DNA of 64,000 nucleotides from Verrucomicrobiaceae bacterium (GTDB lineage: Bacteria > Verrucomicrobiota > Verrucomicrobiia > Chthoniobacterales > JAATET01), in assembly GCA_027488755.1 (NCBI GenBank), contig JAIYAZ010000103.1:1-64000 (forward strand). Direction: 5' to 3'. Position 1 is the first letter of the stretch; every line of letters starts with the position of its first letter. Below the pieces are notes generated by a model. That model was not told where the DNA came from, did not search any database, and was given only the letters and a program-made list of their open reading frames with translations. Position numbers and translations under genes: made by a program. This document shows positions 1 to 64,000 of the stretch, piece by piece.

Positions 1-651
1 GGCAACTGGTCGCCGTCGGGTTCGCGGGTGACGCCCTGCACCCATGAGACGATCCGTGACTTCGTCGCGCAGCATCCCCGTGGGATCGTGTTCATCGACG
101 AGGTCGACAAGTTCGAAGGCCAGCAGGACTACTACCGCAGCGTCCAGATCGAGGTGTTCGCGATCCTCGACGGGAACCTGGATGGGTTCGCGGGGTGGAC
201 CGACGAGGAACGCGAGCGGTTCCGTGAGAAGTTCCTCATCGTCGGTGCCGGCACCTGGCAGAATCTCTTCCGTGCCAAGCGGAAGACAGTTGGGTTCGGG
301 GTTCAGGCCGATGGGGGTTCGACGGAGTCCGATGCTCCGCCCATTGACCTGAGCAGCCAGACGGTGATTCCCGAGGAACTGCTCAACCGGTTCAATGCGC
401 GGGTCATCTTCCTTGATCCGCCCAACGCCGCGGACTTCCGCGAGCGGTTCCTGGAGATCCACCGCGGGCTCAAGCTTCTGCCTCCCTCGCCGACGCGCCT
501 CGAGCGCTTGATTAATCGTGCGGTCGAAAGCGGCAAGCACAACCGCGCGGTCGAGGCTTACCTCAACTACGTTCTCGAGAAGTATTTCGGCGGCGGGGGG
601 AAGGACGCTCCGGAGAATCCGGATGCGGGCGAAGCGGGCGCGGTGGCGTAG
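1..651 (+). CDS. AAA+ ATPase, C-terminal part (cut by window edge)
   Basis: The frame is open from base 1, so the N-terminus and Walker A motif lie outside the window. A GTG at 28 is in frame but does not look like a real start. Visible are a Walker B motif (GIVFIDEVDK, near residue 30), a sensor-1-like stretch (IVGAGTWQN), an arginine-finger-like LLNRF after 'IPEE', and a C-terminal helical lid. This ordering is that of ClpX/RuvB/FtsH-like AAA+ motors, which use ATP to remodel proteins or nucleic acids. The tail is low complexity (Gly, Ala, Glu). The specific family cannot be named from this fragment. It ends just before a strong terminator, so it is the last gene of its transcript. Confidence 0.8.
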   Translation, partial: GNWSPSGSRVTPCTHETIRDFVAQHPRGIVFIDEVDKFEGQQDYYRSVQIEVFAILDGNLDGFAGWTDEERERFREKFLIVGAGTWQNLFRAKRKTVGFGVQADGGSTESDAPPIDLSSQTVIPEELLNRFNARVIFLDPPNAADFRERFLEIHRGLKLLPPSPTRLERLINRAVESGKHNRAVEAYLNYVLEKYFGGGGKDAPENPDAGEAGAVA

Positions 652-58770: not shown

Positions 58771-59664
58771 TCAGGCCCGGGGCTTCACTGGATTGTAATC
58801 CGCCGCGTGGTAGGAGCTGCGCACCAGCGGACCGCTGGCGACGTATTCGAAACCCTTGTTGCGGGCGATTTCCCCGTAGAGGTCAAACGTCTCCGGGCGG
58901 ATGTATTCCACGACCGGCAGGTGCTGCGGCGTCGGGCGCAGATACTGCCCGAGGGTGAGAATCTGCACGTCGGCCTCGCGGAGGTCGTCCATGGCCTGGA
59001 AGAGCTCGTTCTCCGTCTCCCCCAGCCCGAGCATGATGCCGCTCTTGGTGACCACCTCGGGATCGAGCTGCTTGGCGCGCTTGAGGAAATCGAGCGAGAG
59101 GCGGTATTTCGCGCGGGAACGGACGAGCGGGGTGAGGCGCTCGACGGTTTCGAGATTGTGGTTGAAGACGTGCGGCCGGGCGTTGATGACCGTCTGGAGC
59201 GGGCCTTCCTTGCCGTTGAAATCGGGCACCAGCACCTCGATGATCATCGCCGGATCCACGGCGCGGACCGCCTCAATCGTGCGGGCAAAATGCTCGGCGC
59301 CCCCGTCGGCAAGGTCATCGCGCGCCACGGCGGTGATGACGACGTGCTTGAGGTTCAGCCGGCGAATGGCCTCCGCCACGCGCTGGGGTTCATCCTCCTC
59401 AAGGGCGAGCGGCTTGGCGGTGTCGACCGCGCAAAATCCGCAGGCGCGAGTGCAGCGCTCCCCGGCGATCATGAACGTGGCCGTGCCCTGGCTCCAGCAT
59501 TCCCAGCGGTTCGGGCATTGGGCGCTTTCGCAGACGGTGTGGAGCTTGAGGTCGGAAATCAGGCCCTTCGTGGAAAAGAAGACGGGATTCGAGGGCAGGC
59601 GGACCTTGATCCACTCTGGCTTCTTGGCCTGATGGAGGGCGGGATCGATTTTCGAGCAAGACAT
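58771..59664 (-). CDS. lipA: Lipoyl synthase
   Basis: LipA inserts two sulfurs into octanoyl groups on lipoyl domains using radical SAM chemistry. The 297-residue protein has both cluster motifs: the auxiliary CESAQCPNRWEC and the radical SAM CTRACGFC. Also seen are GTATFMIAGERCTRACGFC, NHNLETVERL and SGIMLGLGETENEL. The C-terminal RSSYHAA carries the conserved RSSY. The ATG at 59664 gives a typical N-terminus; the longer frame adds 10 residues. It lies 66 bases downstream of recR. Confidence 0.97.
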   Translation of the reverse strand: MSCSKIDPALHQAKKPEWIKVRLPSNPVFFSTKGLISDLKLHTVCESAQCPNRWECWSQGTATFMIAGERCTRACGFCAVDTAKPLALEEDEPQRVAEAIRRLNLKHVVITAVARDDLADGGAEHFARTIEAVRAVDPAMIIEVLVPDFNGKEGPLQTVINARPHVFNHNLETVERLTPLVRSRAKYRLSLDFLKRAKQLDPEVVTKSGIMLGLGETENELFQAMDDLREADVQILTLGQYLRPTPQHLPVVEYIRPETFDLYGEIARNKGFEYVASGPLVRSSYHAADYNPVKPRA

Positions 59665-59730
59665 CGCGGCATTACTTTTAAGTGCAAAAGCCAAAACGCG
59701 AAAGCAGAGATTCGCCCGGCTTGCGCCGCG

Positions 59731-60342
59731 TCAACCGCCCAGGGCCACGCGCCCGGCCAGCGCGCGCTGGAGAGTGAGCTGGTCAGCGTGCTCCAACCCG
59801 CCGCCGGCCGGCAGGCCCTGCGCGAGCCGCGTCACCCGCAGTGCGAGACCGGCGAGCACGCCGGCGAGATAGTTCGCCGTGGCCTCGCCCTCGACGTCGT
59901 TGCTGAGCGCAAGAATGATTTCCGTCGGCTTCTCCGCCTCGATGCGCCGCGCCAATGCGTCGATGCGCAGGTCCTCCGGGCCGACGTTTTCCAGCGGAGC
60001 CAGCCGCCCGCCGAGGGCGTGGTAACGGCCGTGAAAAAAGCCGGTGCGTTCAATCGGAAGAACGTCGGTTGCGGTCTCCACCACGCAGATTTCGCGGCCC
60101 GCCCGCTCGGGCGTCGCGCAGATCGCGCACTCCGGCCCGGTCGCAAAAAACCCGCAGCACCCGCAGGGATGCACGTCCCGAGCCACCGCCGCCAGGGCCT
60201 CGCCGAGGGCGGCGGAATTCGCGTCCGGCGAGGAGGCGAGCCACAGCGCGATGCGTTCCGCGCTGCGCGGACCAATGGAGGGCAGGCGGCGGAGTTGACG
60301 GGCGAGCTGTTGAAAGGGCTCCGGGTAATCGACCGGCTTCAC
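59731..60342 (-). CDS. recR: Recombination protein RecR
   Basis: RecR, with RecF/RecO, loads RecA at gaps during recombinational repair. The 203-residue protein has a helix-hairpin-helix start (RLPSIGPRSAERIALWL), a zinc finger (HPCGCCGFFATGPECAICAT) and a Toprim domain (ICVVETATDVLPIERTGFFH, IILALSNDVEGEATANYLAG). Length and order are standard. It is 7 bases after the cyclase-like gene stop, so the three genes are likely cotranscribed. Confidence 0.97.
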   Translation of the reverse strand: MKPVDYPEPFQQLARQLRRLPSIGPRSAERIALWLASSPDANSAALGEALAAVARDVHPCGCCGFFATGPECAICATPERAGREICVVETATDVLPIERTGFFHGRYHALGGRLAPLENVGPEDLRIDALARRIEAEKPTEIILALSNDVEGEATANYLAGVLAGLALRVTRLAQGLPAGGGLEHADQLTLQRALAGRVALGG

Positions 60343-60349
60343 GCGGGCG

Positions 60350-61624
60350 TCAGTGGATCTCGGCCAGCGCCGCCACGGGCACCGGCTCCTGGGGATGCTC
60401 GCCGCGCCGCGCGCGCTCGGTGCGCAGCACGATGGTGTCCAGCCCGGGGTCCGGCAATCCGGGCACGCGCGCCTTGGTGAATTCCTCGATCGCGAGGTCC
60501 CATCGCCGTTCGCGGAAGTAAATCACCCCCCGCCAGAAATGATCGCGGCTGCGGGCCCGCTCCGGCGAAAGCCCGTGCTTCGGCGCCATCACCTCGTGGA
60601 GCTCGACCTTCGTGCCGTCCGCGCGCCGCAGCAGGTCGATCGGGCGGGATTCCACCGTCTCCTGCGCCGTGCGGTAGGTCTCCGGGCCAATGAGAATCCG
60701 CACGCCGTAATTCGCCCCGGCCGCGCACAGGCGCCGGGCAAACTCGACCGCCGGCCCCGCCACGCTGAAGGACCCCAGACGCGTGCCGCCGTAGGCCGCC
60801 GCGATCATCGGGCCGGAGTTGATGCCTACGCGAAAATCCAGGCGCTGATTCCACCGCGCGTCGCACTCCTTGTTCAGCGCCTCCACCCGGCTCGCCAGCT
60901 CCAGCGCGGCCCGGCAGGCCGCGATGGCGTGATCCTCGCGCGCCAGCGGCGCACCGAACACCACGCGCAGACTCTCCCCGCCGCATTCGTCGAGGTAACC
61001 GCCGGCCTCGACCAGGTAGTCAGAGGCGGTTTTGAGGTAAAGGTTCGTCATCGCCACGTAATCCGCCGGCTCCAGCGCAGCCAGGAGTTCCACGTGATTG
61101 TGCACTTCGCAGACCACGACCGTGGCCTGGGTCTCCTGCCCCGGAAAGCTGAGCGGCACCTGCGCGTCCACGAGTTGGCCAAACTGCCGCCGCGACAACC
61201 GCTGCCCGAACAACCGTTGCAGCACCTGCTTGCGCGCGCCGGATTTGCTCCGTCCGTAAAAACTTCCCAGCACCAGGCTGATCCCCGTCGCCAGCACCGC
61301 GGGCACCGGCGAAACAAACACCCCGTAAAGCGCCAGCACCAGCGCGCCCGTGAACCAAAGAGCCACGCCCGCCAGCGCCAGACCGAACTTCCCCGCGGCC
61401 CGCGGCAGATCCACCGTCGTCCACGCAAAGCCAAACGCCGCGATCAACGCCGCCAGTCCCGCGGTGAACGGCGCCACCGCATGCACGGCCCCGCCGGGGG
61501 CCACCCGCGCCAGTCCCGCCGCCAGCATCGCATCCGCCGTGCGCAACCACCCGGTCACGCCCAGCACAAGCACCGCCAGCGCGGACACCGCGCCAATGAT
61601 CAAAGTCGCCTTGAGGTATCTCAT
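60350..61624 (-). CDS. Membrane-bound class III cyclase-like protein, catalytically degenerate
   Basis: A 424-residue protein with three or four N-terminal membrane segments (7-25, 50-70, 82-100, 106-120), then a class III nucleotide cyclase domain (about 165-345) and a C-terminal TPR-like tail (FRERRWDLAIEEFTKARVPG). Relative to active adenylate cyclases, the first metal Asp is Glu173 (VVVCEVHN), the second metal Asp is Glu217 (DECGGESLRVVFGAP), the substrate Asp in DYT is replaced (SFS), and the transition-state Asn is Glu294. Therefore it probably does not make cAMP by the usual mechanism and may be a nucleotide-binding sensor. It overlaps the upstream ClpX-like gene by four bases. Confidence 0.8.
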   Translation of the reverse strand: MRYLKATLIIGAVSALAVLVLGVTGWLRTADAMLAAGLARVAPGGAVHAVAPFTAGLAALIAAFGFAWTTVDLPRAAGKFGLALAGVALWFTGALVLALYGVFVSPVPAVLATGISLVLGSFYGRSKSGARKQVLQRLFGQRLSRRQFGQLVDAQVPLSFPGQETQATVVVCEVHNHVELLAALEPADYVAMTNLYLKTASDYLVEAGGYLDECGGESLRVVFGAPLAREDHAIAACRAALELASRVEALNKECDARWNQRLDFRVGINSGPMIAAAYGGTRLGSFSVAGPAVEFARRLCAAGANYGVRILIGPETYRTAQETVESRPIDLLRRADGTKVELHEVMAPKHGLSPERARSRDHFWRGVIYFRERRWDLAIEEFTKARVPGLPDPGLDTIVLRTERARRGEHPQEPVPVAALAEIH

Positions 61625-63216
61625 GGGGAGGCGGGAGAGCCTGCCTCATTCGCGCGGACGTGGCGATAGGATTCCACCACCCATTCACTCAGCAGCCCGT
61701 CCGGATCCTCCACCGCCCGCAGCGGCAGCACAAACTCCGTCCGCCCGCTGTTCTTGCGGATAAGCTGAAGGCCAAACTGGTAATCCTTGAACCGCGCCTC
61801 GCACAACTCCCGCACGCCCGTTCCGCCCGCCACGGCCAGCGCCACCAGCGCCTCCGCCGCATCCGGTTCAAAGCGAATCGCCAGGTCATGCTGGTCGCGG
61901 AAACGCCCGGCAAACTCCGCCACGATCCCCAGCAGCGCCCGCTCCTTCTCCGCGTGCCCGCTCTCCAGCAGCGCCCGCAGCGCCGCCGCGGGACCGCCCA
62001 CCAGCGCCTCGTCCACCGTGAACGACGACACGCCGGAATCCGGCAGCTCGTATTTGAAATCCCGCAGCAACCGCTCGCAGACCGTCAGCAAACCCCGCGC
62101 CCCCGTCCGCTCGCCCTCCGCCCGCTCCGCGATACGCCGCAGCGCCCCGTCCTCAAAAAACACCTCCACCCCATAGGCGCGAAACGCCCGCTCGTATTGC
62201 CGGATAATGCTGCCCTCCGACCGCTTCAGAATCTCAAACAGGTCGCCCGCGCTCAGCGGATCGCACACCACCCGCACCGGCAGCCGCCCGATGAACTCCG
62301 GCTCCATGCCGTAGTTCACAAAGTCCGCCGTCGTCGTCTCCCGCAGCAGATTTTCCTCCGCCTCAAACGCCGCCGGCTCCGCGCCAAAACCCAGTCGCGA
62401 CTGCTTCATCCGCCGCCGCACCTGCTCGTCCAGCTTGTCGAACGCCCCGCTCACGATGAACAGGATGTGCCGCGTGTTGATCGTTTCCCGCGCACTCTCG
62501 CCCCCGTTGCGCTGCATTTCGAAGGCCGCCTTGATCTGCCCCTGGAGATCCATGGGATTCCGCGCCGTCACCTCCGTCTCCTCCATCAGCTTCAGCAGCG
62601 TGGTCTGCACGCCCCGCCCGCTCACGTCCCGGCCCGAGCCGTTCGCGGAACTCGCAATCTTGTCGATCTCATCGATGTAAATGATCCCGTGCTCCGCCAG
62701 CGCGATGTCCCCGTCCGCCTTCTGCAGCAGCTCGCGCACGAGGTCCTCCACGTCGCCGCCCACGTAACCCGTTTCGCTGAACTTCGTCGCGTCCGCCTTC
62801 ACGAACGGCACGCCGATGAGGTCCGCCACGTGCTTCACGAGATACGTCTTGCCCACGCCCGTCGGCCCCACCAGCAGCACGTTCTGCTTCGCGTATTCGA
62901 TCACCGCGTCCGGATTTTCCTCCCGCAGACGGCGGGCCTCCCGCGCGTGGTTGTAATGATCGCACACCGCGATGCTCAACACCTTCTTCGCCTCATCCTG
63001 CCGGATCACAAAGCGGTCCAGATGCTGCGTGATGTCCTTCGGCTTGAACGCAAAGGCAAACGGCTCCTCCGCCACCTCGAGCGTCTCCTCCACCTCCTCC
63101 GTCCCCTCGCCCGTCGGCGCCTCCGCCGCGGGCCGCGCCCCCATGCCCTGCCGGAGCAACTCCGCGAGTTTCTCGTGAATCTGCTCCGGCGTAAGTTTCA
63201 GCGGATCGATACTCAT
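61621..63216 (-). CDS. ClpX-like AAA+ unfoldase without zinc-binding domain
   Basis: A 531-residue AAA+ protein whose core matches ClpX: FKPKDITQHLDRFVIRQDEA at its start, Walker A GPTGVGKT (117-124), the pore loop GYVG (150-153), Walker B IIYIDEIDKI (178-187), and the ClpP-docking tripeptide LGF in SRLGFGAE (275-277), followed by EFIGRLPV and the small domain. It lacks the N-terminal zinc-finger domain; residues 1-56 are a low-complexity lead. A C-terminal extension (about 396-531) contains a second small-domain-like helical segment (EPDAAEALVALAVAGGTGVR). It probably feeds a ClpP protease but with different substrate recognition from true ClpX. The start is ATG at 63216; a longer frame adds 12 unrelated residues. 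Confidence 0.88.
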   Translation of the reverse strand: MSIDPLKLTPEQIHEKLAELLRQGMGARPAAEAPTGEGTEEVEETLEVAEEPFAFAFKPKDITQHLDRFVIRQDEAKKVLSIAVCDHYNHAREARRLREENPDAVIEYAKQNVLLVGPTGVGKTYLVKHVADLIGVPFVKADATKFSETGYVGGDVEDLVRELLQKADGDIALAEHGIIYIDEIDKIASSANGSGRDVSGRGVQTTLLKLMEETEVTARNPMDLQGQIKAAFEMQRNGGESARETINTRHILFIVSGAFDKLDEQVRRRMKQSRLGFGAEPAAFEAEENLLRETTTADFVNYGMEPEFIGRLPVRVVCDPLSAGDLFEILKRSEGSIIRQYERAFRAYGVEVFFEDGALRRIAERAEGERTGARGLLTVCERLLRDFKYELPDSGVSSFTVDEALVGGPAAALRALLESGHAEKERALLGIVAEFAGRFRDQHDLAIRFEPDAAEALVALAVAGGTGVRELCEARFKDYQFGLQLIRKNSGRTEFVLPLRAVEDPDGLLSEWVVESYRHVRANEAGSPASP

Positions 63217-63379: not shown

Positions 63380-64000
63380 TTAAAGCTTCAACTCCCCCGC
63401 CAGCGCATCCAGCCGCCGCCGCATCACGTCCCCCGTGCGCACGGATTCCTTCGCCCGCTCGATCCGCACCAGCACCGCCGCCGCCCCGGCCGGCGTCGCC
63501 CGCGCCACCTCCGCCCGCAGCGCGGCCAGCGCGCGAAAATCCTCCAAATACGGCGCCGCCAGTGCCCGCAGGCCGGCCACCCAGCCATCCGGCGGCACCG
63601 GCGCCGCCCGGTCAAACCGCTCCAGCCACGCCCCGCCCGCATCCACGTCCCCGCCCCGCCAGTCCCGCAGCCCGTAAACCAGACACGCAAACGCCATCGG
63701 CGAATCGTCCGCCGCCTCCGCCCCGTCCGGCCGCGCAAAGTTCCGCCCCAGCGCCGCGAACTCCCGCCCCAGCGGCTGCGCCGTCAGCCCCGCGTCGAAC
63801 ACCCCGCCGCGCGCCAGCTCCGCAAACGCCGCCTCCGCTCCCGCGCCATCCCCCGCCAGCAACGCCGCCAGCCCCGCCTGCGCCCGGGCCCAATTCTCCG
63901 CCGGCTGCCGCCCCGCCGCTCCGGCCCGAGCCGCATCGAAGCGCGCCCGCGCCGCCGCGAAATCCCCCGCCAGCAACGCCGCCCGGCCCGCCGCCGCCTC
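63380..64000 (-). CDS. TPR-like protein, cut by window edge
   Basis: The frame is open to base 64000, so the N-terminus is missing. The visible 206 residues are very Ala-rich helices in TPR-like pairs (ALLAGDFAAARARFDAARAG, GLAALLAGDGAGAEAAFAEL). The C-terminal third has RALAALRAEVARATPAGAAA and a final basic RRRLDALAGELKL. No signal sequence can be judged. TPR proteins mediate protein interactions. It is upstream of the REP-like palindrome in the same orientation as the ClpX-like operon. Confidence 0.55.
   Translation of the reverse strand, partial: EAAAGRAALLAGDFAAARARFDAARAGAAGRQPAENWARAQAGLAALLAGDGAGAEAAFAELARGGVFDAGLTAQPLGREFAALGRNFARPDGAEAADDSPMAFACLVYGLRDWRGGDVDAGGAWLERFDRAAPVPPDGWVAGLRALAAPYLEDFRALAALRAEVARATPAGAAAVLVRIERAKESVRTGDVMRRRLDALAGELKL

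Follow-up and report, generated by a model that had tools for sequence, protein, structure and literature searches.

A ClpX-type unfoldase paralogue and a membrane pseudo-cyclase in a gene cluster with recR and lipA in Verrucomicrobiota

A stretch of 64,000 nucleotides from a Verrucomicrobiaceae bacterium (order Chthoniobacterales; GenBank assembly GCA_027488755.1, contig JAIYAZ010000103.1, positions 1 to 64,000; hereafter the window) encodes a paralogue of the AAA+ unfoldase ClpX, here termed ClpXL, followed by a membrane cyclase-like protein and RecR. In this study, the two proteins and their surroundings were analyzed computationally. The explanation that we favor, at a probability of about 0.6, is that ClpXL is a second ClpP-docking unfoldase, that the cyclase-like protein is a separable membrane scaffold or sensor with a pseudo-cyclase domain, and that both belong to a shared ancestral gene cluster. 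All features described here lie on the reverse strand of the window unless noted otherwise.

According to this explanation, ClpXL would most likely form a hexamer that uses ATP to thread proteins through its GYVG pore loops, and its IGF-type loop would dock it on the one ClpP that also serves canonical ClpX. Having lost the zinc domain and the RKH loop and gained another loop and a second copy of the small domain, it would take a substrate set unlike that of ClpX and would not read ssrA tags in the ClpX manner. The pseudo-cyclase may act by protein contacts at the membrane. Finally, the genes for a kinase, ClpXL, the cyclase-like protein, RecR and LipA would form an old cluster that is probably co-expressed and from which clpXL or the cyclase gene has been lost separately, and clpXL would adjoin the cyclase gene because both belong to this cluster.

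The ClpXL unfoldase

The clpXL gene (61621-63216; ATG start) encodes a protein of 531 amino acids, which was assigned to the ClpX type from its translation, an AAA_2 match and a Foldseek search. A ClpX structure was its best sequence match in the PDB (252 bits), and Foldseek with the AlphaFold2 (AF2) model, which had a mean predicted local distance difference test (pLDDT) score of 83.9, returned ClpX structures first, with template modeling (TM) scores of 0.79-0.90 by target. The Walker A and Walker B motifs, the arginine-finger box and sensor 2 were conserved across the family alignment of 68 full-length ClpXL proteins, on which the family counts in this section are based, and the pore-1 loop read GYVG in 64 of them, GYMG in two and GYIG in two; ClpXL is predicted to be ATPase-competent. 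Moreover, a hydrophobic-Gly-Phe tripeptide stood at the ClpP-docking position in 68/68, and in the window protein it is LGF (residues 275-277; 62386-62394), the counterpart of the IGF loop by which ClpX docks on ClpP. A reading of the window made from its sequence alone (the sequence-only reading) had described the protein as a ClpX-like unfoldase, and the AAA_2 match, the ClpX scores and the conserved ATPase motifs all point the same way.

These features, together with the AAA+ large and small domains, are shared with ClpX. In contrast to ClpX, ClpXL has an N-terminal segment (residues 1-57; 63046-63216) in place of the C4 zinc-binding domain (PF06689), in which AF2 predicted a helix at residues 10-24 followed by a low-confidence, disordered linker; the N-terminal CxxC pair of the zinc domain was found in none of the 68 proteins. 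The RKH motif was likewise found in 0/68 by alignment, and a longer loop (residues 218-246; 62479-62565) substitutes for the RKH substrate-recognition loop of ClpX. The first small AAA+ domain (residues 347-412; 61981-62178; PF10431), with a sensor-2 box of TGARGL conserved in the 68 sequences, is followed by a C-terminal extension of about 100 residues that is absent from ClpX and constitutes a second, duplicated small AAA+ domain (residues 441-508; 61693-61896). The duplication was detected by profile-profile comparison (probability 98.1%, E 6.5e-14, 27% identity), in which four other ClpXL regions used as controls gave no match, and both small domains have the same beta-helices-beta order of elements in the AF2 model.

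The window protein also scored below both curated ClpX equivalog cut-offs of NCBIfam (349.8 against 359, and 318.7 against 370.75), and a tree separated the ClpXL proteins from the canonical ClpX proteins that these genomes encode (support 100/100). The genome from which the window comes has its canonical clpX (C20:22133-23188) adjoining clpP (C20:21349-21888); clpXL is not beside clpP and tig, and canonical clpX occupies that place. Because it lacks the zinc domain and the RKH loop, scores under the curated cut-offs and is encoded at another place, ClpXL is to be classed as a ClpX-type variant and not as ClpX.

Among described proteins, the nearest case is ClpX3 of Myxococcus xanthus (MXAN_2743), an extra ClpX that lacks the N-terminal domain and the RKH motif, is nonessential, is linked to heat tolerance and is encoded by a gene isolated in the genome (PMC11423568). 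The absence of the N-terminal domain and the RKH motif is common to ClpX3 and ClpXL, which were likened by description only. HslU resembles ClpXL in having no zinc domain and gave a partial match, but it was a far weaker match than ClpX and pairs with HslV rather than with ClpP. An identity of ClpXL with HslU was rejected on the scores, no HslU-type match lying above ClpX.

Among 289 genomes drawn from Verrucomicrobiota, 76 had a ClpXL match at a threshold of E up to 1e-80, a permissive count that includes fragments at contig ends (for example in G250 and G218) and divergent or short forms (G113 and G200). A scan of a named genome collection gave at least 528 matching loci, and the best 80 of these were nearly all labeled Verrucomicrobiota, with Chthoniobacterales, Terrimicrobiaceae, Roseibacillus and Methylacidiphilum among them. 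ClpXL has long been conserved in Verrucomicrobiota, most likely by vertical inheritance. In genus g27 of family f15, which is well sampled (genomes of 2.3-3.2 Mb), none of the species listed had a ClpXL match at E 1e-80, and the gene has probably been lost throughout that lineage. No account of a ClpXL paralogue in Verrucomicrobiota was found in the literature searched.

The gene cluster upstream of recR and lipA

In the window, clpXL overlaps the cyclase-like gene (60350-61624; 424 amino acids; ATG start) by 4 bases (61621-61624), and a spacing of 7 bases (60343-60349) separates the latter from recR (59731-60342; 203 amino acids; GTG start). RecR scored 206 bits with the curated equivalog model TIGR00615, above its cut-off of 162.55, and its HhH, Toprim and C-terminal domains were present by Pfam and NCBIfam. 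The sequence-only reading had given these three genes with the same overlap and gap, and the open reading frame listing and translation agree with it exactly; the run that it described, however, is longer at either end. Upstream of clpXL is a gene for a Ser/Thr protein kinase, with its 3' part at 63380-64000 and its beginning outside the window (PF00069, 166 bits; whole gene L187:1381-3225), and lipA, encoding lipoyl synthase, lies downstream of recR (58771-59694; start codon not settled) and is directly followed by gltB. The gene spacing suggests that the run may be carried on one shared transcript.

Where a genome of the order has both genes and their arrangement could be tested, clpXL was directly followed by the cyclase gene on the same strand in 19 of 21 cases; G022, which is broken at contig ends, was left out of this count. 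The two exceptions were G006, in which the genes are apart, and G026, in which clpXL is inverted; in the latter (L080) the inverted gene converges on the cyclase-recR pair, a local rearrangement in the cluster. Counts over the named loci that extend 2.2 kb or more downstream (n = 68) placed the cyclase gene next in 35, recR close behind in 33, both in 30 and neither in 30, and the cluster was present in loci labeled Chthoniobacterales and Verrucomicrobiales. The clpXL and cyclase genes overlap or nearly abut in many relatives, and many relatives also have a kinase homologue upstream on the same strand and lipA beside recR. The pairing is thus conserved in related genomes (19/21; 35/68), without which the sequence-only reading would have regarded the coupling as incidental. 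Furthermore, differences between the window and same-genus sequences were concentrated at third codon positions in clpXL and cyclase alike, which indicates that both are maintained as proteins.

The two genes were present or absent independently of each other. The 38 genomes of the order comprised 22 with both genes, six with ClpXL only, seven with the cyclase only and three with neither (Fisher p=0.67). Where ClpXL was absent, the cyclase gene still preceded recR in 6/7 genomes, and where the cyclase was absent, clpXL still preceded recR in 6/6; two genomes, G036 and G032, have the cyclase gene without clpXL behind a homologue of the C-terminal part of the kinase. What is constant, therefore, is the position ahead of recR and lipA, which the signaling genes fill separately. 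Over similar sets, identity to the window protein was about 28-58% for the cyclase and 51-64% for ClpXL. An obligate clpXL-cyclase pair was rejected as the default on account of the independent presence and absence of the two genes and their separate retention beside recR. The evidence leans against such a pair, and an obligate two-protein switch is unlikely. Two considerations temper this view: the Fisher test takes 38 related genomes, some of them incomplete, as independent and is therefore rough, and a weak functional link would equally give near-constant adjacency where both genes occur.

The alternative with the most in its favor is that the cluster merely reflects a gene order inherited together with recR and lipA, its members being functionally unlinked. 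The housekeeping genes recR and lipA are included in it, either signaling gene can drop out, and many clpXL genes elsewhere in the phylum have other neighbors, such as HU, ubiE and his genes. On the other hand, the order has been kept over large divergence, whereas the place of gltB beside lipA has not: gltB, which served as an internal contrast, was near the cluster in just two genomes, both from the same genus as the window. The kinase, the unfoldase and the pseudo-cyclase, moreover, all look regulatory. We regard this alternative as tentative but worth serious weight, and it overlaps with the favored explanation, which commits only to co-expression.

Two further observations were made on the encoded proteins. 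The kinase has a zinc-ribbon-like N-terminus (CPTCG...CPACGG) followed by the kinase domain, and its C-terminal part, after a hydrophobic stretch, is repeat-like. Two open reading frames of 216 amino acids each, at window positions 58-399 on the forward strand and at G000:C19:14280-14621, had a weak match to the C-terminal half of AAA_2.

ClpXL and the single ClpP

The clpP gene that adjoins canonical clpX is the only full-length one in the source genome, in which other matches to the ClpP family (PF00574) were weak and partial. In the order, a single full-length ClpP per genome is the rule, and a few genomes have a second, weaker or divergent ClpP-family match, with a second strong one in G023. 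Two single-contig genomes of 0.9 Mb (G010 and G019) have kept ClpP and ClpXL, and tig and clpX are gone from beside clpP; a search across both genomes did not find the ClpX zinc domain anywhere.

Some of the evidence weighs against a general partnership of ClpXL with ClpP. The docking is deduced from a three-residue motif and from gene retention, and is to be read as probable at most. The two small, endosymbiont-like genomes also keep two larger Clp ATPases of the ClpC/ClpB type that could serve ClpP, so ClpXL need not be the sole ClpP partner there. In addition, a subgroup of short forms (L095-L097) has lost the IGF motif, so that not all members of the wider clade would use ClpP. The tree nested these forms inside the ClpXL clade or next to it, with weakly supported deep branches. 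The three short forms (G009:C42, G025:C48 and G014:C41) also lack the C-terminal duplication, and one of the genomes, G009, carries canonical ClpX, ClpXL and a short form together.

The short-form subgroup is possibly a ClpP-independent unfoldase. The same might be proposed for ClpXL as a whole, which would then be an unfoldase or remodeling chaperone working apart from ClpP. Both the loss of the IGF motif in the short forms and the duplicated small domain, which could alter ring geometry, would fit such a proposal, but a hydrophobic-Gly-Phe tripeptide kept in every full-length member would be unnecessary without ClpP. For full-length ClpXL we consider ClpP-independence doubtful.

The membrane pseudo-cyclase and the meaning of the locus

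The cyclase-like protein was assigned from its translation, a Guanylate_cyc (PF00211) match of 35 bits, and its AF2 model (mean pLDDT 91.7), with which Foldseek matched Cya2 and CyaB at TM scores of 0.85-0.88 by target. Hydrophobic N-terminal helices (residues 1-125; 61250-61624), modeled by AF2 at 2-23, 26-39, 52-72, 76-99 and 107-125, form the predicted membrane part and agree, as a prediction, with the membrane protein proposed in the sequence-only reading. The pseudo-cyclase domain (residues 160-350; 60575-61147), delimited by alignments and residue counts, is followed by a helical tail (residues 354-406; 60407-60565) that is TPR-like by a weak TPR_2 match and an AF2 model with helices at 354-371, 375-385 and 393-406.

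The window protein has Glu at both metal positions (E173 and E217 for Asp1 and Asp2) and at the position of the transition-state Asn (E294), and keeps the Arg (R298). In 49 aligned members, the first metal position was Asp in 14 and the second in five, never both together; the second was mostly Glu (39/49), the Asn occurred in 1/49 and the Arg in 41/49. Not one member had both metal Asp residues and the Asn together (0/49), and none had more than one of these three, which upholds the earlier description of the domain as catalytically altered. The protein shares the cyclase fold of the class III enzymes Cya2, CyaB and Rv1625c, and N-terminal membrane helices with Rv1625c; unlike those cyclases, it never combines the metal Asp pair with the Asn, and it has the TPR-like tail. 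Because the metal Asp residues and the Asn are missing, synthesis of a cyclic nucleotide by the known class III mechanism is very unlikely. The metal and nucleotide positions are variable and not conserved as a set, which argues against a conserved nucleotide sensing. Most likely, the protein would serve as a scaffold or sensor through protein contacts. The literature searched held nothing on a matching pseudo-cyclase.

The sequence-only reading had proposed a nucleotide-gated proteolysis switch, in which the pseudo-cyclase would bind a nucleotide or another ligand at the membrane and gate or recruit ClpXL, perhaps with the kinase. The close spacing of the genes in many relatives and their adjacency in 19/21 genomes of the order, the kinase gene upstream, and a fold kept while catalysis was lost, as expected of a pseudoenzyme regulator, are in keeping with this proposal. 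It is nevertheless unlikely, for the two genes occur independently of each other (p=0.67), six genomes that lack ClpXL retain the cyclase gene next to recR, ClpXL has other neighbors across the phylum, the metal and nucleotide positions vary freely, and divergence is far more rapid in the cyclase than in ClpXL. Slightly less credible still is a bolder version, in which the kinase, the membrane pseudo-cyclase and ClpXL would make up a Verrucomicrobiota-specific pathway of membrane-tethered, regulated proteolysis, with ClpXL rivaling ClpX for the single ClpP and replacing ClpX in some endosymbionts. It is highly improbable that the protein is a functional nucleotide cyclase whose active site departs from the standard one: the fold is intact, and the Glu at metal position 2 and Arg298 suggest that some constraint remains, but the counts in the 49 members led us to reject an active cyclase. 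An anti-phage defense system was also rejected, as PADLOC gave generic matches only (weak ones to ClpXL and to Pycsar cyclases, and generic kinase models) and housekeeping genes lie alongside.

The interest of the locus lies chiefly in the unfoldase family, so far uncharacterized, and in its persistence in genomes without ClpX. Should ClpXL act together with ClpP, a whole phylum would have two unfoldases of the ClpX type working on one peptidase. The substrate-recognition surface, rebuilt in evolution, would then offer a natural experiment to separate the parts of ClpX responsible for specificity from those that ClpP requires. The pseudo-cyclase family adds a further case of a signaling fold that outlives its catalysis. 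Moreover, the reduced genomes that carry ClpXL without ClpX suggest that this variant can carry essential functions.

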